A program made the position numbers and the translations under genes. Below, piece after piece: positions 3,561 to 51,305 of a stretch of DNA of 64,000 nt (positions are counted from its first letter, which is position 1; each line of letters starts with the position of its first letter). The notes under the pieces were generated by a model. That model searched no databases, was not told the origin of the DNA, and saw only the letters and a list, made by a program, of their open reading frames with translations. The DNA lies in the NCBI RefSeq assembly GCF_008831285.2, contig NC_045145.1:20724040-20788039 (forward strand), read 5' to 3'. Origin of the DNA: Nymphaea colorata. Its lineage: Eukaryota; Streptophyta; Magnoliopsida; Nymphaeales; Nymphaeaceae.

Positions 3561-5425
3561 ATATAAGCTGATGTTGTAGGGTTTTACGTGCCGAAAACTC
3601 TTTCTTTTTTTTTAAAAAAAAAAAAAATAGTTAATGTTAGGGATAACATTAGTCCAAGTTGGACGCACAAGATGAGTACTCCAAGAAACCTGGGGTATTT
3701 TTGTGATTTCCAAAAAAGAGAAGCACATTTTGGGATACAAACCCATTGGAATCCAAACAAAAATACCCTTTATCATTAGATTTATTATGTGCTCCATGTT
3801 TGAATTTGAATTGAAATGTGAATGGTAGAAGCGACAGAGCCAGAAATTTTTGGCTAAGGAGTATAATTGTAGAATTTTTCATTTTTCATGAGAAAAAACC
3901 ATATATAAATAACTAAATAATTGTAAGACATATATATATATATATATAATTGTTGCTGGCATGAGCAAATACAAGCTAGATGAACGAAAAAAGTTATGTG
4001 AATCCTAGTCTGACTTTCGTATTCAAATATGCATTGTATAGGAATATGGCCTTTAAATTCAAATTCTAATCTGAATCCAACTTTTCAATTAACAACTGCA
4101 ATCAAACCGCCCTATGATACATTAACATCCCGCTTTCGGAATGTATGCATATTGAATAGGGAGAGTTTAAACTGACCATGTTAATGTTTACTGTCCGATC
4201 ACAAAAATCATTCAAAAGATGCCTCTCATACTTGGTTCTTTATAAAACGATATATGGAATTTTTTTTTCAAATAAAAAAATAATTGTTACAAAAAAGACT
4301 TTCGCATGTAACACTTAACAAAACTGTTCATCAGACATTTTGTAATCGGGCAGCATGATTAAATCTTATATAAAAAATGTAATATTGAGAACGCATTATT
4401 AATGAACGTACTTTGTGGCTATTGTGCTTCTTACTAAATGCTTCATAATGAAAATTCAAAACAGACAATTATAAAATGAGTAGTGCATTAGACTTACGTA
4501 GATAATATCCATAAATGTGACAGTACTCAAGTATTTATAGTCGTTTGGTGGTTTTATTAAAATTTGACTTTATAAGGTCCAAAGTCTACACAATCCAAGA
4601 AAAAATTAATTTAAATGCTATGCATAAATTTGAATTTGTTGAAGATAAAAAATCAATGATCTTAAATTGTTTTAAATTGATAAAAAAAAATTGAATTGTC
4701 ATAAAACGCAATCCACGCGTCGGATTTAGGGTGATCTTTCTTAAAAACCCTTAGGACTAAGTATTCTAAGTTCATTGCTCTGTGAAATTTTAAAAAACAC
4801 CAGCCAAAATTTCAACCGACCAATAGGACAGAGACAAACAGAAAAAAAATGTGACTCTTCAATTCACTTGTTTGATACATTATATATATATATATATATA
4901 GCATGGCTTAACGAATATGACCGCATAAAATAATGAAATTGCCAAAAATACACCTGATTTTATAAAATCATTAGTATAAACTATTTTTTAGTTTGGTTAT
5001 GTTATAAGGTTGTAACTTTTATGAAATCTTGATCAATCAAGGCATGATGTTTTTTCTTCTACTTCTTCTTTTACTAGAGTCGTGTAAGGAATAGCTTGAA
5101 ATTGTTCATGTATCCCCGTCCGTTGGATTCTGACGGGGCAAACTAAACTGGTCAAGGGCCAGTTTAGTAATGCTCACAGAAAGAATGTCAAATTTGCTTA
5201 GCACAAGTACCAACCTTCTCCTAATTCGTCTCGACATTTATTGAAATCTTTCATTCTTGTCGTCAATAAAGTGCAAAAACCATGTTTTGTTATTCTGGAA
5301 ACAAAGACTTTGAGTACTACTTTAGTAGTTTATCTTTTGAACTGGTTTAGTGGTTGAGTCCATGCGTCCACACCAACCTCACAAAGTATGTTTAGTTTTA
5401 CATTATTGTTTTGGATATATTTCAT

Positions 5426-27320: not shown

Positions 27321-30694
<3,374 letters not shown>

Positions 30695-33552: not shown

Positions 33553-36500
33553 ATGGCCAGCGGTTTCTCCGATAACGATCGCCGGATCCTGGAGGCAGTC
33601 GGCGCCGGCGCTTCGGGCCTCTCTTTCATAGGATCGTCTTTCATCGTACTCTGCTACGTCCTCTTCAAGGAGCTGCGCAAGTTCTCTTTCAAGCTCGTGT
33701 TCTTCCTCGCCCTGTCGGTGAGTGCTCGCCACGGTCTCCGTTTTTCCTCGATCCTCTTATGGATCTCTCGAACGCCGGATATTTTCATTGTTTTTGTTTC
33801 TTTGAACTAGGATATCTGTTTGCTGTCGATCTGCATTCTTCCGTTTTATCCTGCTTCGCTGGAATTTGACCGTCTAAGTACCTGAGGAGAGAGATCTGTA
33901 GTTTGGTAATAGTTTTAGGACTCGAGGTAGCTAAGCAAAACAGCAGGAATTTGGTTACAATTCTTGTGTATTGTGGGGCAAAGAATTGTTTAAATCAGGT
34001 GTAAATTAGTTGTCTTGATGTTTCCCACTTGACATGGGTTCAAGGGGAGTGTAATATGCTTGTAAAAGAATGTCGATGCATTATATCCATGCGGACCTTG
34101 ATCCCTTCATATAGGGAAACATTGTCTATTGGTGATGCTATCATAGTCGCGTCTTATTCAGCTAGACTTACACATGCAGGCAAGTGTTTAGTCTTATTAA
34201 AGTTGCACAGGATGGAAGAATTTAGAATGTACAAGCTAGCATGTGTAGATGTTGCTAAATAGGGAAGGAATCTGGGTCCAACATGTCAAACTTTTTTGGT
34301 CATGGATGTATGAGAATGTTATAATAGTTGAAATTGAAAATCACAAAATTTCGAGGTACTAATGCTTGCAAGATTCATATAAGATGTGATGCATCTTGTA
34401 GCCAATCCATCTGGTTAATATCATTGCATATGCAGATTTGCATTAAAAAAATTTGAGAATTTTACTTTTTCGTGGGCACATCAAGTTCTTGGAGGTTTCC
34501 TATATTTATTCATTACTTTTCTCCTGATCCTTTTTGGTTCGCTCCATCTTGTTAGACACTTGAAACCATGTTGAATTTCTCTAGAACTGATACCTTGGGA
34601 GATCAATACGCTTGTTTTCTTCTATGTAGGCATTGTTGCTCTACTGTTTGCTTAAGACAACAATTATGCAACTCTTCATAAGGCTGTCTTTGTCTATTTG
34701 TTACCTCACAAACATGCACCATAAAACAGGAAGGCAGATAGAACGTTTCTTGTCACTGACGAGCCTAAGTTGCCTCTTTGAATGTCAATTTATACTTTTA
34801 AAAGAGTGGGAAGCAAAAGTGCTACAAAGCCCACAAAATTATAACCCTATAGAATCCTAAATGCATGCAAAATGTGAATCAACAGCAATTCTTAGAATAA
34901 TAAAAGTCTAGCCAAAGCTGGCTAACTTGTTTGAAAAACACAGTATTTATCAATGATTCAACAATACTAGGCCATGTGTTAGTGTATATCATGAAGTACA
35001 CATCATACTAATATATATCCAATGCAATGGGATATTCACAACATCAGCCAAAATGCTAGACCAGAGAACAAACTTGCAAGTTCTGCCTTGGATTTTTTTA
35101 AAATAGTGATGCAGGTTCTAACATAAATTGGCTTAGGAAAGATAATTCTCATAGTAATTTTTCCTTTTGTGGTCAATGTGGGCCCAATTTCCATGGTTCA
35201 CCTACACACACACATACGCAGGCACACACACAGACATACAAATATGAGTAATATTTTGAAAATATCATGATATCATGATACATCCACTGTAAAAAACTTT
35301 CTTTATATGTAACTTACATGTATATTTACATTTTTTTGTTTCATAATCCAACAACTCCTTTACTATTCTGTGCATGTTTTTGTTATGGTAATATAACAAG
35401 TTGACATCCTTTACTTTAATGAAGGTTAAACTTAATGGCCTCCGATACCTGGATGTTCTTAAGTTATTTTTTATCAGATGCATCCTGCACTTAAAATCTA
35501 GGTATACTTCCCCTAACATGCCTCCTGCTTTGTCCTTACCATCTTGTCTAGGTGATATAAATGGCCATACGTACCTTTTTATGTTGTCCGTTTGATCTCA
35601 TACTTATGAATTGACGCCGGCGCATATTTCTTTAATCAGTCAATACAGATACTCAATGTTGTTTTCTTTTGTCTGCTCGTTATGGAAGTTTTCTGACACA
35701 TGGTGTTCCTGTTGCAGGATATGTTCTGCAGCTTCTTCAACATATTTGGGTATTCTGCTTCCATCACTGGGTTAAGAATTAGGAATCCAATTGGAAATCA
35801 GAAATCTATTTTATAGAAGAGGTGTTGCATTTATATTCTCCAAATTATCAAGTAAACCTCAACCATCAGTATTGTGTTCATATGCACCATAATCATGTTG
35901 TGGAACCAGCCTACTTGCCAACTCTCTCTGGGCTAGGAAATTCATATTGACCACCATTACCATCACTGTTATATTCCGGCCACCTAATTAAAGTCATTGT
36001 CTTTGAAAATCTTCCTATTCTGATGCTGCCTATACATCCTTGTAGTGATGCATAAATACAGGAGATGCTGAGCTTTTTCTTTTGCTGGTTCAGTGTCATC
36101 AACACCTCTGAGTCTTAGTGATTATTATTTCTTCTGAAAAATATTTTTTTACAATCTCAAGTTTGTAGAATCTCTAAGATTTCTATATTTGTTGGTCATA
36201 ATAAGATTCTGAATTTGTGAATTTCACATTCAAAACCATCATGTTGCTGTTGCAGGGACCCATCAAAAGGATTTCTATGCTATGCACAGGGATACAGCAC
36301 ACATTTCTTTTGTCTTGCATCGTTTCTATGGACCACAACTATTGCATTCACCCTTCATCGTACTGTTGTTAGGCATAAAACTGACGTTGAGGATTTGGGT
36401 CCTATCTTCCACTTATATGTTTGGGGTGAGCATTCTCTTGCAATCATCTGTAGATCTTTATTTGTTGGTGTCATGGGGTTTTCTTGATGGTAAAATTGGA

Positions 36501-38078
36501 TGTTTGTTGGAAAGAACAGGCTGTGGTGTTATGCTCATTGTCTTTTAGTCTTTTTTTGCAAGTTTTGCTTCTAAGAATCAGAATGTTTTCCCTGTTCATT
36601 GCTTTACTAGGTGGCCACTTGTAAGTGTTTGTTGCCCAATTCTTCTTACCTTTTTTCTTTCATTTAGTTAGTTAGAAATAGGTTGTCCAGTGGCTTATAG
36701 GTGGATTTTATTTTTAATAGAAGGATTATAGAAGATATGGACACCCATTTCAGTGTTGTCTACTTCTCTTGTGGAAGATATTTACTTGACTTATCTATAA
36801 GACATGGTCTAGAACAATGGCCTAGTTTGGTAGATTTTTTTGTTTCCAGTACTTCTGTGTGTGTGTGCATGCATACTTATAGTTCCAACTCATGTGCTAT
36901 TATACTTTGGATGTTTATATGTTAAGTTTTTAACTCTGCTTTACATGTCTTATTTAATATGTTTTTTGCTTATTGGAATTACGATAGAAGACAAATTTCT
37001 GGCAAGCAATGTAACATGAAAACATTGATTATATTGAGGATTTATGTTCCTTTTCCTTTGATTAGGTCAGTAGTTTAGTCTTGCTTTTGGGATTTTAGTT
37101 TTAGATATTGGAATTGCAGATAAACAATTGACAATTGGGAACCTGTAACATTGAGAAGCATTGTTATTTATGTTTTAAGTTTTTTTTTGTGCTATATAAC
37201 TTGTTAACTTTAATTCAGTGTCACAGAAAACATGTTTATTTGACAAAAAAAGTTAAAAACAGGTCAGCCAAAAAAGAGAGAAAAAAACATGTTCTTTTGA
37301 AAAAAATGCCAAAATGAAAAGGCAAGGTTTTTTCATGTTTTTTCCATTTTTTTAATTTTTTCCATTTCTTTCATGTTTTTTACATTTTTCGGTTAACAGA
37401 TTTTTATTTTCATGTTTTTCACGTTATTTTTAGGATCTTTCCTTTTTCAATTTTTTTGTTTTAAACTTATTGAGATTTTCCCAAACAACTTTGGCATATT
37501 ATACTGGAGAAGAACCTCGTCGTTTAATACCTGAAAATGATATTTATGACAATGCTATTCAACTTCATCAAATCTAATATTCCAAACTTTTATTTGTGTT
37601 TACCACCAAGTTGCAAAATGTTTAATGTGTTCAAGCTATCATGCATTTTAATTGTTTTATTATTGTAAGTTGATGGTTCTAGGTTTTTCACTGAAAAATG
37701 CTTTAGCTTCACTATTATTTTTAACAATTAATGTTGCATTTTATTGGTTTCCCTTATTATTATTTTTTTTTTATAATTTGGTTTGTGTGGGTGGGTTGGG
37801 GGGGAGGGGGTAGTTTGGGTGCTTAATGTGCTTCGTGCCACCTAAGCTCTAGGGTGATCTAACTACCTAGGCTTTGCCCAATGCTTTTCTGACTAGACTT
37901 TCTACCTCTCTCAAAATTCTGCGGGATGTCGGATGTTGCTGGATGGCAAAAATTTTTGTTGCTAAACAGCAGTCACTACATTGGCATTATTGACGGTTTA
38001 TAGTGGCTCTAGTGATGATTCATGGTTCTTTCAGTGACGAATTTTTAAATTATAGCCGTCTGGCATCTATTGGCGTTG

Positions 38079-38131
<53 letters not shown>

Positions 38132-40473
38132 CTCTCTGTGTGTGTGTGTGTGTCTATATATATATATGCTCAAAGAGCCTAGATTTGCCTATGCTCTATT
38201 CATTGCCTAGGCTCTGCCTAACATTTTAACCACATAAGGTGTGTCTCTTTTGGCAGGAGATATACTTTCTTATTGACATGGTACTTGTTCTGCTTGATTT
38301 TAACTTGCTATATATTATCTTTTCCACTTTTCAGGGACTTCACTTGTGATGACTGTTGTACAGTCAATAGGTAATAATTATGGACAACTAGGTACTTGGT
38401 GTTGGACCCAGACAGGACAAACAAGCAAGGCACGTCCAGTATTTGTTGCTATGTAAATTCTTTCTTATTTCTTAACTCTCATTCGGATACCATCTGGTTT
38501 TGAGAATATACACCCGCATTGACCCATCAATTGATCATATTAGGTGACTGATGTTCATGATAAATAATGTATTGTGGTTTAGTTTGAGTATGAAATTGTG
38601 CAACCCTAATCTGTTACAACTTGTACCATAAATTTTCTTTGCTCCATGAATATTTTTCTGTGAACAGCTTGTTGTTCTGCATGGTTCATGTCCTATTTGT
38701 CTATGCTCTCCACTACTGTTCTATAGATTTATTCATAAAATTCCGTGATAGCACACATTTCCCACATGAGACAAATAAAAAAAGGCAGACAGTAACTGAT
38801 TACCTTTTTGTAACTTTCTTTTGATTTTTGGTTGTTTTCTCCTTTTTCACCTTCTATTCTATTATTCTTAATTAAATATGTGTTATTGTGGAGTAATTGT
38901 TGTGGAGCTCCATTATTGTGTGTCTCAGGAACTCAGTTCATTTGTTCTCATGCCATTTATCCTTCTTTTTCGTAAAGGCTCCTCCATGGTTCTTATTGAA
39001 TATATTCAAGTAGTTTATGAGGACCTTGTGCTTAAGCTTTTGCACTCTTTCGTTTGCCTACTTTGGATGTCAGCTGAATGATTTCATGTATAATGCAGGT
39101 GGTGCATCTGATGACATTTTATGCACCTCTATGGGGTGCAATTCTTTTCAATGGGTTTACATACTTCCAAGTTATCCGCATGCTGAATAATGCAACTCGT
39201 GTAGGTTCATGATTCTGAAAATGCTGAACCTAAAGTTCTTTGTGTTGAAGAAACTTCGCATCTGTTCCTCCATTTAATTTTTTGGAGAATTTTGAAGGGG
39301 TTTGCAGCATAACCTATTTCACTAACAGTTAGTTTTTGAACTTTGTCAGATGGCAGTAGGCATGCTGGATGGGACAACTCAATTTGACACAAGGGCAGAT
39401 ACAAAGGTAGTATTTTGTATATGTCTGCTTGCTAAAGGTTCCATTGATCCAAAATACATTTTGGACTGACATAAAAGCACATTTTGGACCAAAAATGCTG
39501 AACCTAAAAAACACATTTGTGACCGTGTTACTTCTAATAAAATACTCTATGGTTCTAGCTCATTGAGCACAATTAGTAGAAGTAAGTTTTGGAAAGGGAA
39601 TTGTGGAAACTTTCTCATTCATAATGTCCAAAAGAAATTGGAGGACAGCAAAAATGGGATGAATTTATAGTTTTTTGAGCAAATCCAGCTGGAAAGATTA
39701 ATCAAGATGGATGCAGTCCAATTGCCAATACGAATCCCATTACTCCTAATCCAATCGTTGAACACTTGCTGGGCAGAATCACAAACTGACCGGCTTCTTC
39801 AATAATTATTGATGTGATTGTTGTTCACCATAGCAGCAGCCACAAACTTCCAGCAGAAGTAAATAACAGCAATAGACTTTCAAACATTAAATTCAGCCAA
39901 TAGTTGGTGAGCAGAAAACTTCAAGTCAACTTGGAAAACACCTTCCCAAGATGTCTACAGCTTGGAGAACAGGAGAGAATCTGATTGAACAAAGCCCGAA
40001 GCTCTGATACCATGTATACTATACTCCAGTCACCAAAAGAGTCTTCCCACGCGCAAGTGTATCGAGAAACAATTCACAATGAAAACTGAATATTATTCAT
40101 ATGAAACAGTCATACAAGCCTGGCTTAAAAAACCATAGCAATTAACCTTAGGTTGATACAATATTTATAGAGGTAAAGAAACTAAAGGGCGACGAAAGCC
40201 AACTGTTGGACTGAGTTCCAACGGGTAGAAAACTAGCCGTTGGAACTCTCCAACATCTGGAAACACAGAAAAAAGGAAAGAAAAATAAAAACTAGAAAAA
40301 GAAAAGAAATATAAAAAAAAGCACAGTACAGTCCTATGTACATAAAACATATGTAAGTACATATGTATACATACAAACACTTAAATACAGTGATGTATGC
40401 TGAAACATATGTACATACATATATATATGTACTTACATATAAACTAACAGAAAGTAGGTTCAATATAAATCAG

Positions 40474-40507
<34 letters not shown>

Positions 40508-42686
40508 ACTGTGTGTGACTAACCTAAAGTGCATGCTAGATGTCTGACATAACTCTGATCATTAAGTCAGGTAATGGTCTTGTTGGATAATTGTTTGGGG
40601 TGTGGGCATTCATCTGGTTTCACTTGTGTATCTAATTAGCATCTTGGTCAACTCTATTTTCCATGTTTGGGCAGGTCATAAGTTTGTGAATCTTATCCAA
40701 AATACACCATCTACCTCCTTGATATACTCATTGATGATAATGCAAAAGGGTTCTTTCTTTCCGCAGTTGGAAAGGAAACATAGTTGTTTTGTGTATTAAA
40801 GCTGTGCAGTTCAGTGTTGCTTTATGTCACATGAGAAACCTTGAAGCTATCTGTGAAAATTGCTCATATATTACTTTTAATTTCTGTATTTCAGGCATTG
40901 AGCAGATGGGGATACTACCCATTGATCTTAATTGGTTCATGGGCCTTTGGAACTATTAATCGCATTCATGACTTTATTGATCCTAAACATAGAATATTTT
41001 GGCTGTCACTTCTTGATGTCGGAATGGCATCCCTCATGGTATGAATCTTATCTGCACAACCTCTATTTACCGGTAGAAATATTATAGCGATAATCTAGAA
41101 CGAGAGTTCTTTATTTGCCAGTTTTGCTTTTATGCTATTCTACGCCTAGCGAGAAGGGCATATGCAGAAGGACCAGGTATTGGTGACTGTTTATGAGGGA
41201 AGAATAAACGCCTGAGGAGTTGGTGCTAAGATCAATTCCATGTCAGTAATTGGTTGTATTGTTTTCTGTGCAATGTTGAGTGAGTCCTTTCTCTAGTTTA
41301 ATTCATCCAGAAGCTTACAAACATGAAAAATACTTCTAGCCTTATTGGCTTGACTTTTTTTAGTTTAAATTTGTGATGTCATGTTAGGATCATTAACCTG
41401 CCTATGGTTTAATAGATCAGTCACGTATATCTGCTCACTACTTCACCAATTAGACATTTAAAACTTTAAACTAAGACCTTCAGGTTGAAGAAGGCCAAGA
41501 GTTCAATACCAGGAGCTCATCTCTGTTGAAACACGAAATAACCTGGGATCTGCTGCCTAACCCTAACTTGTATATCTAAAGAAGATGTAAAAGTATTTTT
41601 TGTTGATTTTTCTTCACCATTACTAACTTATTATTGAAGCTACTTATCTACATATCATGCATGTTCCAGGGTTTGTTCAATTCAATTGCATACGGACTTA
41701 ATGCATCAGTGAGAAGAGCAATACTTGAAAGGCTAGATCAGTAAGTCAGTTTCCTGGAAATGAATCTAGTTGGATTACTTTTAGCTGTTGGCATTTGTTA
41801 TGATCTTATGGTAGAACTCTACGTGCTTCATTTACAACTCTTATGTTGTTGCTGCTGCCTACTGACTGTCTGTATGCCATACAGATAGTGTATGCCCTTA
41901 ACATAGAACTTGGATGTGTTATTATGTTGATTCTGAAATGTTTTGTTTTGCATATGCTTATATTGGAATGCTTCTATTCATGTAAAATTTACAATATCAG
42001 CTGCCTTTTAGTAGCCGTTTAGTAGCCATTTATTTTTTTCATTTCAGGATTTTATACTCGTCTGAGATGAAATTGGATGTGTTATTATGTTGATTCTGAA
42101 ATGTTTTGTTTTGCATATGCTTATATTGGAATGCTTCTGTTCATGTAAAATTTACAATATCAGCTGCCCTTTCGAAGCTGAACAGCTCACATTTGTGAGG
42201 CAGTGGTCATGTGGATATTTTAGGTTGCTGTTTGGTGGTTTTCCTGTACTCATGAAAATAGCAGCATGGGCCCAACATTACGTTAACATGGTTCAGCACA
42301 CTATTTTGTGCATCTATTCCATAGTTCATGTTCATGTGTGTCTGCATATCATGTGATACTCGATATCCATGAAATATGTTGATCCTTGCTCTGACACTCC
42401 ACTTAGTTATTTAATGTTAGTCCATTTCCTTCCATTTGCTAGGTCACTAATCTAGCTGCATGATATATTGCTAAGCTATGACCATCTTGCTGAAGACCTG
42501 ATATGAAATGTATGTTTTCTGTCTTCATGGGGTGCTAGGGCATTCTTACATATCGTATATACTTTTGCAATTTTTTGCAGGTGTTGGCCTGATAGATTCA
42601 AGAAATTGCTTTCGGCTAAGATACATCTTAGGGGACAACAGCAGGAGAATGAGTTAGTTCCTCTAAGAGTTCACAATCAGCCCTAA
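33553..42686 (+). CDS. GCR1: GCR1, G-protein-coupled-receptor-like seven-transmembrane protein (9 exons)
   Basis: Exons are 33553-33717, 35718-35749, 36256-36425, 38335-38429, 39099-39200, 39350-39406, 40895-41038, 41670-41740 and 42581-42686. They total 942 nt for 313 residues, with continuous frame. The product resembles Arabidopsis GCR1, the plant protein closest to animal and slime-mould cAMP-family GPCRs, reported to interact with the G-alpha subunit; its receptor activity is debated. Conserved stretches: LCYVLFKELRKFSFKLVF in exon 1 (TM1 and the first loop), FLWTTTIAFTLHRTVV in exon 3 (TM3), TFYAPLWGAILFNGFTYFQ in exon 5 (TM5), RWGYYPLILIGSWAFGTIN in exon 7 (TM6), and GLFNSIAYG in exon 8 (TM7). 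The cytosolic tail is short. Length is close to the Arabidopsis protein (about 326). All introns are GT-AG except intron 4, where frame and homology require a GC donor (AAG|GCACGT at 38430). Introns are long and hold a copia LTR remnant, SSRs and a duplication. It converges on the G-gamma gene. Confidence 0.95.
37789..37810 (+). other. Potential G-quadruplex in GCR1 intron 3
   Basis: Four G-runs (37789-37791, 37793-37795, 37798-37804, 37806-37810) are separated by 1, 2 and 1 bases on the sense strand. This satisfies the usual G3+ N1-7 pattern with very short loops, in an otherwise AT-rich intron. Confidence 0.6.
38081..38168. repeat. Compound (CT)n(GT)n(TA)n microsatellite in GCR1 intron 3
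   Basis: About 48 bases of CT, a short interruption, about 18 bases of GT, then TATA repeats. This intron also has a G-run cluster at 37789-37810. Confidence 0.95.
40001..40460 (-). mobile_element. Truncated copia-type LTR with primer-binding site in GCR1 intron 6
   Basis: TGGTATCAGAGC, the initiator-tRNA-Met primer site used by many plant Ty1-copia elements, lies on the minus strand at 40012-40001. Immediately upstream of it on that strand (from 40013 upward) begins sequence ending in CA, as an LTR should. A CTATAAATAT box is at 40170-40161 inside this LTR. Internal sequence may extend down to about 39590, but there is no gag/pol frame and no second LTR, so this is a decayed one-sided remnant. 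The far end of the LTR is uncertain. The element is antisense to GCR1. Confidence 0.5.
41910..42168. repeat. 96-bp near-perfect direct duplication in GCR1 intron 8
   Basis: TTGGATGTGTTATTATG...ATCAGCTGCC spans 41910-42005 and 42073-42168. The copies differ at one base (CTTCTATTCATG versus CTTCTGTTCATG). The 67 bases between them are unrelated. Both lie in intron 8, well away from splice sites. Confidence 0.92.
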
Positions 42687-44058: not shown

Positions 44059-47000
44059 CTAGCATAACCAAGAAGGAAGAAAGCAATTGTTTGTACACTT
44101 TGGCCAACACAATAGGCTGGGCCATTTACAGCGTGGCCAACAACATGATGCCTTGGAACAATTTGGCCAAGAGCATATGCAGCAACTGCAGTCTGGGACG
44201 CAGCAGGAGAGGCATGACAAGCTGCAGTCAGGCAGACAGCAAGAACAGCCTGGTAAACTACAATTGCAGCTGGGAGTACAGCAAGAGCAGTCTGGTAAGC
44301 TACAATTGCACTTGGGGATACAACACGAGCAATCTGGTAAGCTACAATTACAGCCAGGTGTGCAACCAGAACAGTTAGGTAAACTGCAACAACACTTGGG
44401 AATACAGCAAGAGCAATCTGGAAGACTGCAACAACACTTAGGATAACAGCAAGAGCAATCTGGAAAACTGCAACGGCACTTGGGAATACAGCAAGAGCAA
44501 TCTGGAAAACTGCAGCTGCACTTTGGAACACAGCAAGAGCAATCTGGTAAACTGCAACTGCACGTGGGCATACAGCAAGAGCAGTCAGCTAAACTGCATT
44601 TGCACTTGGGCATACAGCAAGAGCAATCTGGTAAAGTGCAACTGCACTTGGGCATACTGCAAGAGCAATCTGGTAAACTGCAACTACACTTCGGTGTACA
44701 GCAAGAGCAATCTGGTAAACTGCAACTGCACTTGGGCATACAGCAGGAGTAGTCAGCTAAACCGCACTTGCACTTGGGCATACAGAAAGAGCAGTCAGGC
44801 AACCTGCAACTGCACTTGAGAGTGCAACAGGAACAGTCCGGTAAACTGCAACTGCACTTAGGCATACAGCAGGAGCAGCCTGGTGATTTGCAACTGCACT
44901 TGGGACTGCAACAAGAGTGTTTCGCTAAACTGCAACACTTGGGGATACAAGAGCAAGCCGGTAAACTGCAATTTTTCAGGGTGCAGCAAGAGCAGTCCGG
45001 CTGGCTGCAGTGACACTTGGACTTACAGCGAAAGCAACCTGCCAAACTGCAACCACACTTGGAAGAGCAGCCTGGTATGCTGCATCTGCATTTATCAGCA
45101 CCTCTGGAGCAATCTGCTGAACTGCAACCACAGTTGGGAATACAGCAAGAGCAATCCGGTAAACTGCAACCGCACTTAGGAATACAAGAGGAGCAAACTG
45201 GTAAATTGCGATTCTGATCAGGTTCACAGCAACAGCAATCAGGCAAAGTGCAAGTGCAGTCAGGGCAAGAGAGACTTGGCAGGGCACATGGATTGCAGGT
45301 ACAGCAATATGTCACACATTGCCACTTCCGACGCTTTTTTGCATGGCACGAACAACATGGTTTGGGCAAGCTAAGCTCACAGTTGCTGCTGCTGCAGCAC
45401 AAGTATGAGAAATTGAAGCAGAAAATTACGCTGCAAAACAATACAAAAATAGAAAACGCATTATCTTTATTTTCTTTACCTCAATTAGAGCAAAAATGAA
45501 ATAGTATAAATTATAGAACATCAGAAAGGCATATCCCTCTACAGGGTTATATGATTCCATACCTTCCTTACAAATTAATGCTTAAAGTAGTCCAGTAAGC
45601 AATAAAGTATACATTGCATGGTGCTCATAACAAAGTTTAAAAGCTTGACAACGAGAGATCAAAAGAACAGAACATTTCAAGTATAAACATTTCCAGCCAC
45701 ACAAATTGAAGCATCCAGCATAGAAAAACAGCAGACAATTTGAAGCTGATAAATCCAAGCGATCTCACTCAATTATCTAAAGCATCAAAAGGGAAGATCT
45801 TCAATTAGAGAGGCATTCTTCTGCCCATTCTACTTGACAGAATGGATAACGCATCGAACTTTCAACACTTCAATCTATCCAAACAAGCATGTAGCCCCTG
45901 ATTATGTAATGTCGGTGGAAAGGCCAGATTCCGTCAATTATGATAGAATACCTCCTCATTCTTTTCAACAATGGCAATGCAGTCATTCTTTTCTGGAAGA
46001 TGGCAGTAAGCAACGACCTGATCCAGGTGAATAGCCATATGGGTGCTTAAAGTCGTGGTTTCTATGTGCTTCGAAGAACTACGAATCGTTGCACCTTATC
46101 TTTAGTGTGTTGATGACTTAAACCACCTGCCTATCTTAAAATTCAGTCCAAAGAAAAGGCTATTCTGAACCTGCTCTATGTATCCAAATGACATGCGTAA
46201 TTGGAACCAGATTCAGAAAGTTGTTTCGTCCTGTTCAGTAATTCCAGCTTAGAACTATTGACAGAGAGGAGCTTGAATGCAAGTTCACTTACCTACCCGA
46301 GCATACTGATTAAGCAGGGAAGTTGCTTTTTTTTGGGTCATGCAACATGATAGTTTATTCCATTTGTTTGGGCAATAGGCACACTAAAAACTTCAACTTA
46401 ACACAATAGGCAATGCAGGAAACCCGTAACTCAAGAACATCGCAGTGCAACTCTCGCGGGGGAAATGGGAAAAAAAGAAACAGACGAATGTCATCAACTT
46501 CGTTACTAAATTGTTGAAATTTGGCAACTTGATAAAATATGAAATAAGTACGTTTAATAAAATTCAAATCTGTAGCAAATGTAAAAAAAATATGGTACCC
46601 CAAAATTCTCCAAATCCAACATGATTGAGCTTTCTGAACTCTGCACAGGATCGAAGAGAAACGTAAAAATCCCAAATAGAAAGAAGCTCATGTTCGACAA
46701 AAATATGAAGAGAGGTGCATACATGGGTAATAGGGGATCTGCATTTTCTCGAACAAAATCATCAATCCTGCAGAAGAGCATCCTCTCAGTGACAAGAAAA
46801 AACGACTCCAAGGACTTGAACAGCAGAACCTGAGGTTTATATAAACAAAGAAACATGCGTATTGCGTACTCCTTGCAGCATTGAGAAGCAAGTGGAAAGC
46901 TATCCAGCGACAAAAACTCCTCCTGTAGATGCAATTTTTTTTTTTAGACTATAGAATTGGAAGAGATTAAGTAATGCACAAAAATACTTAAAGACTAGAA

Positions 47001-48017
47001 ACTGCAGATAAAGAATCACTCGTTATAAAATGAATTCAAACACCTGCTTTTTCATGTGTTTCTTCCTATTAGACATCAAAGCATGTAGAGAAAATCTACA
47101 CCAAAACGAGATTTGGATCTGACATAAATCGGTTGTTTAGGACTTCACAAAATCCATAGCGCACATAAATTGGGTGTTTAAAGATTTGGCTTACAATGTA
47201 TCTACAATTCAACTTACAGAAACATTAACTCGATTTATGAATGTTGATTAGTCTCCGCTTGTATATACCTTCTCTAGCTTAATCTTGTATAATAGAAAAT
47301 ATGTATTAAGGATGAAAATATTCGTGATTTATCTGAGAAAAGACAATGGTTCATATTGTTGCACTGCTACATGATTGGAGAATTTGGAGGAATTAAAATC
47401 TTCACTGGTTCTATCCAATATCACCAACAAGAAATGGCGTTCCCTTTTTCCTATATATGTACAGAATAGAAAATGGTTAGAATTTGCTAATTGCACAACA
47501 GACATATACAGGATAGCTTGATTCAATCCTCCCCACTCCCTACTTCCATGCCTAGTTGCTATGGCATGCGCATATAGACACGATAGGAGTCTGCTTGTTG
47601 GATCACTCCGATAAAACATGCAAGCAGTTGAAGAACTAGAAAAATCGACGATCTAGGTCTACAATTTGCTATATTTTACAAAATTGAAGAGAATAATATG
47701 CTCATGAAAAGAAAATCCAAAAGAAAACTTGCTAAAAATATCTGCAGGACTTGATTTGCAGGCTATGGCATGGAAATCATCACAAATTAAGGCCACCCAC
47801 CCGACAGTTATACCGTATAAGAGAGAAAGAAAGAGAGATAGAGAGAGAGAGAGACCTCAAGGGAACCGATCTCGTGGTTCAAGATTTCAATCTGCTTCTC
47901 CAAACGATGCTTTCCGTACGGGTCAGGTTGGGAAGGAGGCGACCTTGGGCAGGGCAGCGGCAGTGGCAGTGTAGCTGAGCAGGTCGTCGGTCTAACGACG
48001 GCTTCCGAGGTCGCCAT
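44059..48017 (-). CDS. Type-C heterotrimeric G-protein gamma subunit (AGG3/GS3/DEP1 class) with very long Cys-rich repeat tail (4 coding exons)
   Basis: On the minus strand the exons are 48017-47856, 46922-46870, 46767-46723 and 45430-44059, giving 1632 nt and 543 residues. Residues 33-86 form the G-gamma domain: DPYGKHRLEKQIEILNHEIG on exon 1, EEFLSLDSFPLASQCCKE across exon 2, and DDFVRENADPLLP on exon 3. The intron positions after SLE and inside CCKE fit my memory of plant G-gamma genes. Exon 4 encodes a short hydrophobic stretch (VIFCFNFSYL), a basic patch (HAKKRRKW), then a tail with roughly one cysteine in three residues, ending without a CaaX box. That is the definition of type-C subunits, which pair with G-beta at the plasma membrane and control organ and grain size in crops. 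Rice DEP1 is about 426 residues and AGG3 about 251, so this is unusually long. The start is the ATG at 48017; the open frame reaches further upstream only through non-ATG codons. The exon-1 donor (GAG|GTCTCT) is weak and worth RNA support. Confidence 0.88.
44224..45174 (-). repeat. In-frame 42-bp tandem repeat array coding 14-residue Cys-rich units
   Basis: About 23 consecutive units run through exon 4 of the G-gamma gene (protein residues about 173-489). The consensus is CSCSLPDCSCCMPK, with five cysteines per 14 residues. The last 16 units keep the 14-residue spacing exactly. The promoter-proximal seven are more diverged, with small length changes (for example NCSLPACSCIPK). The DNA period is 42 bp and the copies remain similar at DNA level, which implies fairly recent expansion or gene conversion. 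Long open frames on the opposite strand over this array are by-products of the repeat composition. Confidence 0.93.
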
Positions 48018-50002: not shown

Positions 50003-51305
50003 GGGGGCGTTTGACGGGCAGGAAAAATCCTGTAGCAGCAGAAAAAAAATTCAAATTTTTAAAAAATTTCCGGTTTATCAAACGCAGAAAAAAATTTTGG
50101 ACCGTTACGGTCGATTTCGGAAACTTTTTTCCGGAGAAATATTTTTGCCCGTTAGGGCACACCTTGCTTCTCCTTGCTTTCTCCTCCCGCAGCCGCATCA
50201 TCCTCTCTCTCGCCCGCAGCAGCACCAACCTCGCTTTCTCCTCTCACAGCGTCTTCCTCTCACCCGCAGCCGCACCAACCTCGCTGTCTCCTCTCACAGC
50301 GTCTTCCTCTCGCCCGTTTGCCCTCTCGCCTGCTCGCCCTCTCACAGCGTCTTCCTCTCGCCCGTTCACCCACCTGAGGTTTCGCCGGGGAATCCGTTGG
50401 GAGGAAGAATGTCTGCTTCTGTTGGGCGGTTGAGGCTGACCTTGTTGCTGCCGCTGATGGTGGTGGTACTGGCGGTTGTGGCGTTGGATTGGTGCTAGTG
50501 GATGATGGGGGAGAGAGGATAGATGGGGAATGGGGAAGCTTGGCAGGCGACGGTGCCTTCATCTGGGTAGGGTTCTGCATCATCATCTTCTCTTCCTCTT
50601 TCCTTTTGCTTCTTCTTCTTAACCCCTCTGATCAAACGAATTGGTCGTCAACCGTTAGGTGGAATTGGATGTGGCAGAAACCCTTTGAACAAGAGATGGA
50701 ACGCAAAAATTTGAATGCGCAGGCGGATATGGCTGCCCTGATCCACAAGGAGAGACATAGAGAGAGAGGGAAAGGGAAAGGATGAGATTCCTACAGTTCC
50801 TCCCTCTTTTCTCGCGGGTGGAGTTCCGTCCCCCTTTTGCTTCCAGTTGAGAAAATCTTCCAGAGTATATCGGTGGTCATAGATCTCGACGGCATCCTCC
50901 AAGAGCTATTCGACCTCTCTGCAGAGGGTGTGAGAGTCGGGGCCATTGTCGAGCTGGGCAAACTTCGAACCCACAAAGAGGGCGATGTTTCTGGCCCACA
51001 AATGCCACTTCTGCAGGTCCGGGATGGTGGTGGTGTAGACCAGAGGGCGGAGGAAAAGACGACTCGGAGTTTCCTCGGTGATGGCGGTGGTCGTCGTCTT
51101 CCTCTCACACAGAACCGTCGTCCCCTTCCTTCTTTTCCAATTTTTTTTCATCAAACAAAAAAAAAATTTCCAGAAACATAATTCCTATGTAACAAACAAA
51201 ACTTGGTTTTGGACAATTGAAATTTTATTTCCTATTCATTAATTCCAGGAATTTTTTTCTAGAAATTTTTTTCCATTTCCATATTTTCTGCCATCAAACG
51301 GCCCC
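50003..51305. mobile_element. TIR transposon, PIF/Harbinger-like, 1.3 kb, probably carrying captured gene fragments
   Basis: The left end reads GGGGGCGTTTGACGGGCAG and the reverse complement of the right end reads GGGGCCGTTTGATGGCAG. Both are flanked by TTA (50000-50002 and 51306-51308), the target duplication typical of PIF/Harbinger and Tourist elements. No transposase is visible. The interior differs in composition from the AT-rich ends. At 50160-50390 there is a short-period repeat of TCTCACAGCGTCTTCCTCTC-like units. At 50400-50790 lie plus-strand open stretches with a hydrophobic run. At 51061-50850 (minus) there is a coding-like fragment. It looks like a non-autonomous element that picked up host sequence (Pack-type). 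Confidence 0.65.
50850..51061 (-). pseudogene. Captured fragment resembling the N-terminal part of plant HemK/PrmC-type release-factor methyltransferase
   Basis: The minus-strand frame reads RPLVYTTTIPDLQKWHLWAR, then NIALFVGSKFAQLDNGPDSH, TLCREVE, a TAG stop (50908-50906), and continues in the same frame with LLEDAVEIYDHRY. The stop sits where a tryptophan codon would be expected. The pattern PLxxxTxxDLxxWHxWA...VGS...DNGPDS...RE(x)WLLEDA resembles, from memory, the N-terminal region of plant organellar PrmC/HemK homologues. The catalytic NPPY part is absent. It lies wholly inside the TIR element at 50003-51305. The family assignment is moderate; that it is a broken coding fragment is more secure. 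Confidence 0.45.

Follow-up and report, generated by a model that had tools for sequence, protein, structure and literature searches.

Rice DEP1 (426 aa; PMC3718340, PMC3808331), with 120 Cys (PMC3808331) and a tail of 305 aa (PMC5829277), is a long-tailed heterotrimeric G-protein gamma subunit (G-gamma) of type C, and rice GS3 with its 231-232 aa is a short-tailed one (PMC5179111). The rice grain is reported to be lengthened by the long-tailed DEP1 and shortened by short-tailed or tailless forms; the G-gamma-like (GGL) domain alone shortens the grain, and a long tail reverses this effect (PMC5829277, PMC6357212). According to the model published for rice, DEP1 promotes grain size and the short-tailed GS3 blocks this via competition for G-beta (PMC5829277, PMC6357212). 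Arabidopsis, in contrast to rice, is reported not to have distinguished between tail lengths (PMC5829277). Arabidopsis AGG3 comprises 251 aa with a GGL domain, a putative transmembrane stretch and a Cys-rich tail, which is reported to be extracellular (PMC4877378, PMC5179111).

For the class in general, tails of approximately 70-350 aa with 19-38% Cys are given in print, tail lengths are said to differ even among close species, and tail repeats 5-10 residues long are described as frequent; a tail with twelve tandem repeats is described for a type-C G-gamma of Gossypium raimondii (PMC3508898). The type III G-gammas of Rosaceae are mostly encoded by five exons and have 204-265 aa in the eight species covered (PMC8518290).

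Here we report on a window of 64,000 nucleotides of Nymphaea colorata (C8:20724040-20788039) and on relatives of its G-gamma gene in the genome assembly it belongs to (408 Mb in 783 contigs). On its minus strand lies a gene with a predicted protein of 557 aa and 147 Cys, the last 456 aa of which form a Cys-rich tail. DEP1 (also DEP1/qPE9-1 or OsDEP1) is likewise a long-tailed type-C G-gamma, but the window tail is longer, and the preliminary description of the locus was right in calling the whole protein longer than DEP1 (557 aa compared to 426 aa). GS3 is less than half as long as the window protein and similar in size to a paralogue of 259 aa on contig C10 of the same genome. The likeness to GS3 and DEP1 is meant as one of class and tail size, and no orthology is assigned. 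The Rosaceae proteins belong to the same class and mostly share the five exons, but are shorter. With AGG3 the window protein shares a Cys-rich tail and may share the GGL domain and the putative membrane stretch ahead of it, with 557 aa as opposed to 251 aa. The repeats of the cotton protein are also tandem, a comparison made by description only; in the window a unit comprises 14 residues (2 x 7), and the tail is 456 aa long. The unit size, the regularity, the length and the occurrence of a long and a short form in one genome seem to be new; in the literature searched, with supplements and most subscription journals outside its range, no published description of such a tail was found.

Gene model and class of the protein

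All exons are predictions from the sequence alone. The gene is made up of five coding exons of 162, 53, 45, 42 and 1372 nt with canonical splice sites, all on the minus strand. Exon 1 (47856-48017, 162 nt, donor GAG/gtctct) carries the start codon, the N-terminus and the first part of the GGL domain, and equals exon 1 of the C10 paralogue in length. Exon 2 (46870-46922, 53 nt), encoding EEFLSLDSFPLASQCCKE, and exon 3 (46723-46767, 45 nt), encoding IDDFVRENADPLLP with a DPLL motif, are bordered by ag and gt sites and have 53 and 45 nt in the C10 gene as well. Exon 4 (46599-46640, 42 nt) encodes VQKAQSCWIWRILG and lies in phase between cag and gtacc. After a last intron of approximately 1.2 kb, exon 5 (44059-45430, 1372 nt) encodes the tail of 456 aa with 142 Cys and the stop codon; its frame is open over 473 codons from stop to stop.

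The length of 543 residues given in the preliminary description is indeed what four exons yield, but the fifth exon at 46599-46640 had been missed, and with it the protein reaches 557 aa. Mechanically, 35 in-phase exons would be possible at this place, of which exon 4 is one. It was chosen on account of its family match and of a 45-nt counterpart with the residues IWRIL in the C10 paralogue, the strongest of the checks on it. The peak hydropathy over 19 residues is 1.53 (aa 96-114) if exon 4 is included and 1.63 if it is not, so that exon 4 gains no support from hydropathy. Despite this slightly higher peak, the four-exon model of 543 aa was rejected on the in-phase exon 4 matched in the C10 paralogue. 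At aa 96-114, across exons 4 and 5, the hydrophobic stretch has the location expected for a membrane segment, but is weak.

The first 101 aa matched the Pfam family PF00631 (G-gamma) at aa 49-90 with an E-value of 6.5e-4 and 20.1 bits, which falls short of the curated cut-off (27.1). The full protein of 557 aa matched no Pfam family, even at E 10. Among solved structures, transducin gamma chains came closest, with an E-value no better than 0.14. A search of the whole genome with PF00631 returned a single weak match, on C11, and did not list the window gene itself. We accept the GGL domain, weak as it is by score, because the gene structure and the paralogue agree with it. The protein also contains the DPLLP motif.

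A five-exon layout is published for type-C G-gamma genes (PMC3508898), and in the soybean group III genes exon 2 has 53 bp, exon 3 has 44 bp and the Cys-rich region lies in the last two exons (PMC3154445). The predicted exons of the window gene correspond to this, with five coding exons, conserved sizes of exons 2 and 3 and a Cys-rich last exon, and the tail with its 31% Cys (142 out of 456) falls inside the type-C range. A CaaX box is absent, as the protein ends on FLPSWLC with no Cys at position -4. This is compatible with type C, since a CaaX-like motif is present in only about half of the type-C proteins (PMC3508898). By its exon layout, its Cys content and its C10 paralogue the gene looks like one for a type-C (AGG3/GS3/DEP1-class) heterotrimeric G-protein gamma subunit, in agreement with the G-gamma assignment made before.

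A GCR1 orthologue, recognized over 33562-42686 of the plus strand, lies tail to tail with the G-gamma gene, with the two stop codons 1.4 kb apart. GCR1 is a plant receptor-like protein, the candidacy of which as a GPCR has been proposed and disputed. Its identity was recognized from six stretches matched by tblastn with an Arabidopsis query and from the Pfam family Dicty_CAR (E 2.8e-11 for the joined pieces). The genome search gave no second full copy of GCR1, only a match of 37 residues on C7. That two genes of the G-protein pathway are adjacent may be chance, and the literature matches listed contained nothing relevant on a neighborhood of GCR1 and G-gamma. The last GCR1 intron contains an imperfect direct repeat (41910-42175), in which a stretch starting gatgtgttattatgttgattctgaaatg is present twice. 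Also on the plus strand is an RBX1-like RING-box gene (27327-30691), in which Arabidopsis RBX1 matches five stretches at 64-100%. Tandem Repeats Finder reports a 50-bp tandem repeat with 3.2 copies and 85% matches at 50207-50364, upstream of the G-gamma gene.

The repeat array of the tail exon and its constraint

The tail starts with an N-terminal cap (aa 102-158; 45259-45430, minus strand, as for the following parts), in which the hydrophobic start VIFCFNFSYLCC is followed by a non-repeat Cys-rich stretch and which can be aligned to the beginning of the C10 tail. Degenerate or shortened units (aa 159-278; 44899-45258), delimited by wraparound alignment, come next and can be aligned with a fragment on contig C2. 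They are followed by 16 successive units at a spacing of exactly 42 bp (aa 279-502; 44227-44898), which form the unit table and encode repeats like their consensus CSCSLPDCSCCMPK. The C-terminal cap (aa 503-557; 44062-44226) ends on FLPSWLC and aligns with the C10 end CIPSWLC.

The preliminary description had reported approximately 23 tandem Cys-rich units of 14 residues, at least 16 of them consecutive 42-bp copies with exact spacing. Both counts were borne out. Tandem Repeats Finder gives an array of period 42 with 23.6 copies, 72% matches and a score of 721 (44236-45209). In a wraparound alignment of the whole tail, 25 out of 34 rows (aa 159-502) were taken as units, several of them degenerate or shortened, and the 9 poorer rows at the ends were left out of the count. 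The total is thus approximately 23-25 once degenerate units are included. The tail exon (44059-45430) extends beyond the interval of 44224-45174 proposed for the feature. The tail scored 1773 against the unit, compared to 562 on average and at most 649 for 100 shuffles of its residues. Its strongest periodicity is an identity of 0.485 at lag 14. In a DEP1 sequence that agrees with print in length and Cys count, the tail periodicity peaks at 0.28 identity at lag 20.

The unit of 14 residues consists of two heptads, each of the form C-x-C-x-x-P-x. The two halves of the consensus unit are identical in 13 of 21 bases, a value that 0.05% of 20,000 base shuffles and 0.11% of 20,000 codon shuffles attain. 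The known tails had been characterized as irregular or as carrying shorter repeats. Tandem repeats of 5-10 residues are indeed in print as frequent (PMC3508898), and the 14-mer itself is composed of two heptads.

The 16 units are on average 76% identical, and neighboring units are slightly more similar than in shuffled order (0.792 vs. 0.764, p 0.006). No 41-mer of exon 5 occurs twice, and exact direct repeats inside it reach at most 34 nt. The units differ pairwise by a mean of 0.13 at the first, 0.16 at the second and 0.42 at the third codon position, with a dS of 1.24, a dN of 0.17, a dN/dS of 0.14 and no stop codon. As dS is near saturation and many Cys codons are two-fold, it is to be taken as high and not as a date. 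The array does not resemble a young satellite, and a young slippage array was rejected on the high synonymous divergence and the uniqueness of all 41-mers; the differences lie mostly at third positions, and the cysteines are kept.

The retention of single residues was compared to a neutral simulation of 2000 runs, in which the number and type of changes were as observed and selection was left out. In the five Cys columns 76 out of 80 cells are kept, compared to a neutral mean of 55.5 and a maximum of 68. Pro is kept in 29 out of 32 cells (neutral mean 23.4, p 0.011) and Ser9 in 16 out of 16 (neutral mean 11.8, p 0.002), which indicates that some spacing residues are retained besides the cysteines. 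The absence of stop codons is by itself weak evidence (p 0.04 in the neutral simulation). The antisense frame of 44227-44898 on the plus strand is Gln-rich (QQEQSGKLQLHLGI) and contains two stops within the 16 units. It has a dN/dS of 0.144, close to that of the coding frame because the third positions overlay (mirror effect). The units of the array are under coding constraint.

Relatives within the Nymphaea colorata genome

Tail-like matches were found on at least C8, C2, C10 and C6 among the best-scoring candidates. The C10 paralogue (C10:5672253-5689991) is an open gene with five exons of 162, 53, 45, 45 and 475 nt, encoding 259 aa. Its tail has 157 aa with 46 Cys as opposed to 456 aa in the window gene, and its exon 4 (45 nt) bears IWRIL like exon 4 of the window. 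The last intron is approximately 16 kb long, compared to 1.2 kb in the window gene. Both proteins are 56% identical over 112 aligned codons, which comprise the GGL region and the first tail residues, with a dS of 0.88 and a dN/dS of 0.33.

The tail ends are common to the C8 and C10 proteins, with YCCTCxPC...PDCTCTLPDCxCC near the start and SCCICSxPxC...PSWLC at the end. As both ends can be aligned, the difference in length lies mainly in the inner array. The C10 tail contains four unit-like stretches, of which the first and the last pair best with the first and last of the window; one of the other two pairs best at aa 489, towards the C-terminal end, and the other is tied between aa 187 and aa 377. 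The similarity of units is 0.64 between window and C10 and 0.66 within the window, for a set that includes half-shifted units. The mean dS among units (1.24) is higher than the dS between the domains of the paralogues (0.88), which would allow for an array of old age that C10 has lost in part. As judged from these sequences, either direction of the change in tail length is possible and neither is proven. The preliminary description had suggested that the tail serves as a tunable length domain. On the evolutionary side this is backed by the 157-aa tail of C10, but a fast polymorphic array is not favored, given the 76% identity and the high synonymous divergence of the units.

The fragment on C2 (L009:4072-4512) has 147 open codons and comes closer to the degenerate stretch (aa 158-307) of the window tail, with which it shares odd units, than to the regular one; its alignment scores are 520 and 477, respectively. 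In the DNA alignment and in the MAFFT protein alignment it is one whole 42-nt unit longer, which is not the case in three local alignments with BLOSUM62. Depending on the alignment, the fragment may have one unit more than the window. No GGL exon was found within approximately 13.5 kb on one side of it and 14.5 kb on the other (plus-strand motif scan and blastn), a weak negative, since of the C10 gene, with its last intron of approximately 16 kb, the same blastn picked up exon 1 alone. A poorer tail fragment is present on C6 (L011 around 4185-4343), and a plus-strand motif scan of its 9.5-kb locus recognized no GGL exon beside it.

Possible functions of the tail

We consider it probable that the gene encodes a type-C G-gamma with a tail formed by repetition between caps shared with the paralogue, which pairs with G-beta, is held at the membrane and acts like DEP1, its output being set by tail length. 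This view draws on the predicted protein and on the analogy to rice. Exons 1-5 would be joined by splicing, the GGL domain would pair with G-beta, and the hydrophobic stretch of exons 4 and 5 could fix the protein at the membrane or across it. The long Cys-Pro tail would work as it does in the long-tailed DEP1, with a corresponding effect on growth, and the C10 paralogue could work as the short-tailed form, so that output would be set by tail length. By analogy, the likeliest role is that of a DEP1-like long tail on a predicted G-beta-binding subunit, with a sister gene of GS3 size. Against this view stand the PF00631 score below the cut-off, the Arabidopsis work in which tail lengths were not distinguished (PMC5829277), and the equal dN/dS of the antisense frame, which does contain two stops.

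It is possible, if rather unlikely, that the expansion was near-neutral, with selection on Cys-rich composition only and a number of units that drifts through unequal exchange. Such drift would be in line with the variable tail lengths reported even among close species (PMC3508898), with the 157 aa that suffice in the C10 paralogue, with the 42-nt insertion that the C2 fragment shows in the DNA alignment and one protein alignment, and with the slight excess in similarity of adjacent units. It is at odds with the exact unit length held through 16 successive units, and with Pro and Ser9 being kept above their neutral means, which indicates that the retained feature exceeds Cys content.

The tails of DEP1 and AGG3 are predicted to contain von Willebrand factor type C (VWFC) modules. 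The VWFC pattern matched the window tail at 14 start places, compared to a mean of 8.0 and a maximum of 20 in shuffled tails. As 299 out of 300 shuffled tails (99.7%) contain at least one match, a VWFC match in the window tail would mean little. The TNFR/NGFR signature did not match the tail, and 84% of 300 shuffles match it by chance. VWFC and TNFR modules were rejected on the basis of this shuffle control and the absence of a Pfam match. Neither the tail nor its repeat stretch matched a Pfam family, metallothionein included, and a search of solved structures up to E 0.1 gave no relative of the repeat stretch (224 aa). AlphaFold2, run on four units with the remaining ones supplied as alignment, gave no confident structure (pLDDT 45).

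Metallothioneins have C-x-C and CC pairs, and the window tail contains 44 C-x-C and 30 CC pairs. That the tail serves chiefly as a metal-binding (metallothionein-like) or redox rod, in which these pairs chelate soft metals or form disulphides while the G-protein role is secondary, seems to us quite unlikely. The C-terminal half of DEP1 alone is reported to give Cd tolerance in yeast and in Arabidopsis, and direct trapping of Cd was proposed (PMC3808331); the retention of Cys, Pro and Ser9 among the units would also suit a rod. However, several Arabidopsis G-beta and G-gamma mutants are described as equal to wild type in Cd sensitivity (PMC3808331), so that chelation may not be the physiological role. 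The tail is also without a Pfam family, a solved relative or a confident predicted structure. Compared to metallothioneins the Cys pairs are alike, but the Cys array is far longer, lies behind a G-gamma domain and has no family match.

It is very improbable that the array is non-coding, belongs to a decayed copy or lies in an exon that is not used: tail fragments without recognized GGL exons do exist on C2 and C6, but the window gene has five predicted exons with no internal stop and a strong synonymous bias in frame, and a second open gene of equal layout exists on C10. Misassembly is a well-known problem with tandem arrays, but an assembly artefact as the cause of the array length is hardly credible and was rejected on the unique 41-mers of exon 5 with no exact direct repeat beyond 34 nt, the absence of N in the window and its position beyond 20.7 million of the contig.

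Within the preferred reading of a type-C G-gamma with a DEP1-like tail, a more specific proposal is put forward tentatively, and we regard it as unlikely in its full form. The tail could be a modular spacer of doubled heptads that has grown by whole units, and the proteins of 557 aa and 259 aa could compete for G-beta, with organ size set by the number of units. This would amount to an antagonism of the DEP1/GS3 kind reached by a countable route. The comparison of both paralogues suggests that the change in tail length apparently took place mostly inside conserved ends. The type-C tails published so far are irregular, which makes them difficult to take apart experimentally; countable units of 14 residues together with a short-tailed paralogue would allow for a separate variation of length, Cys number and sequence.
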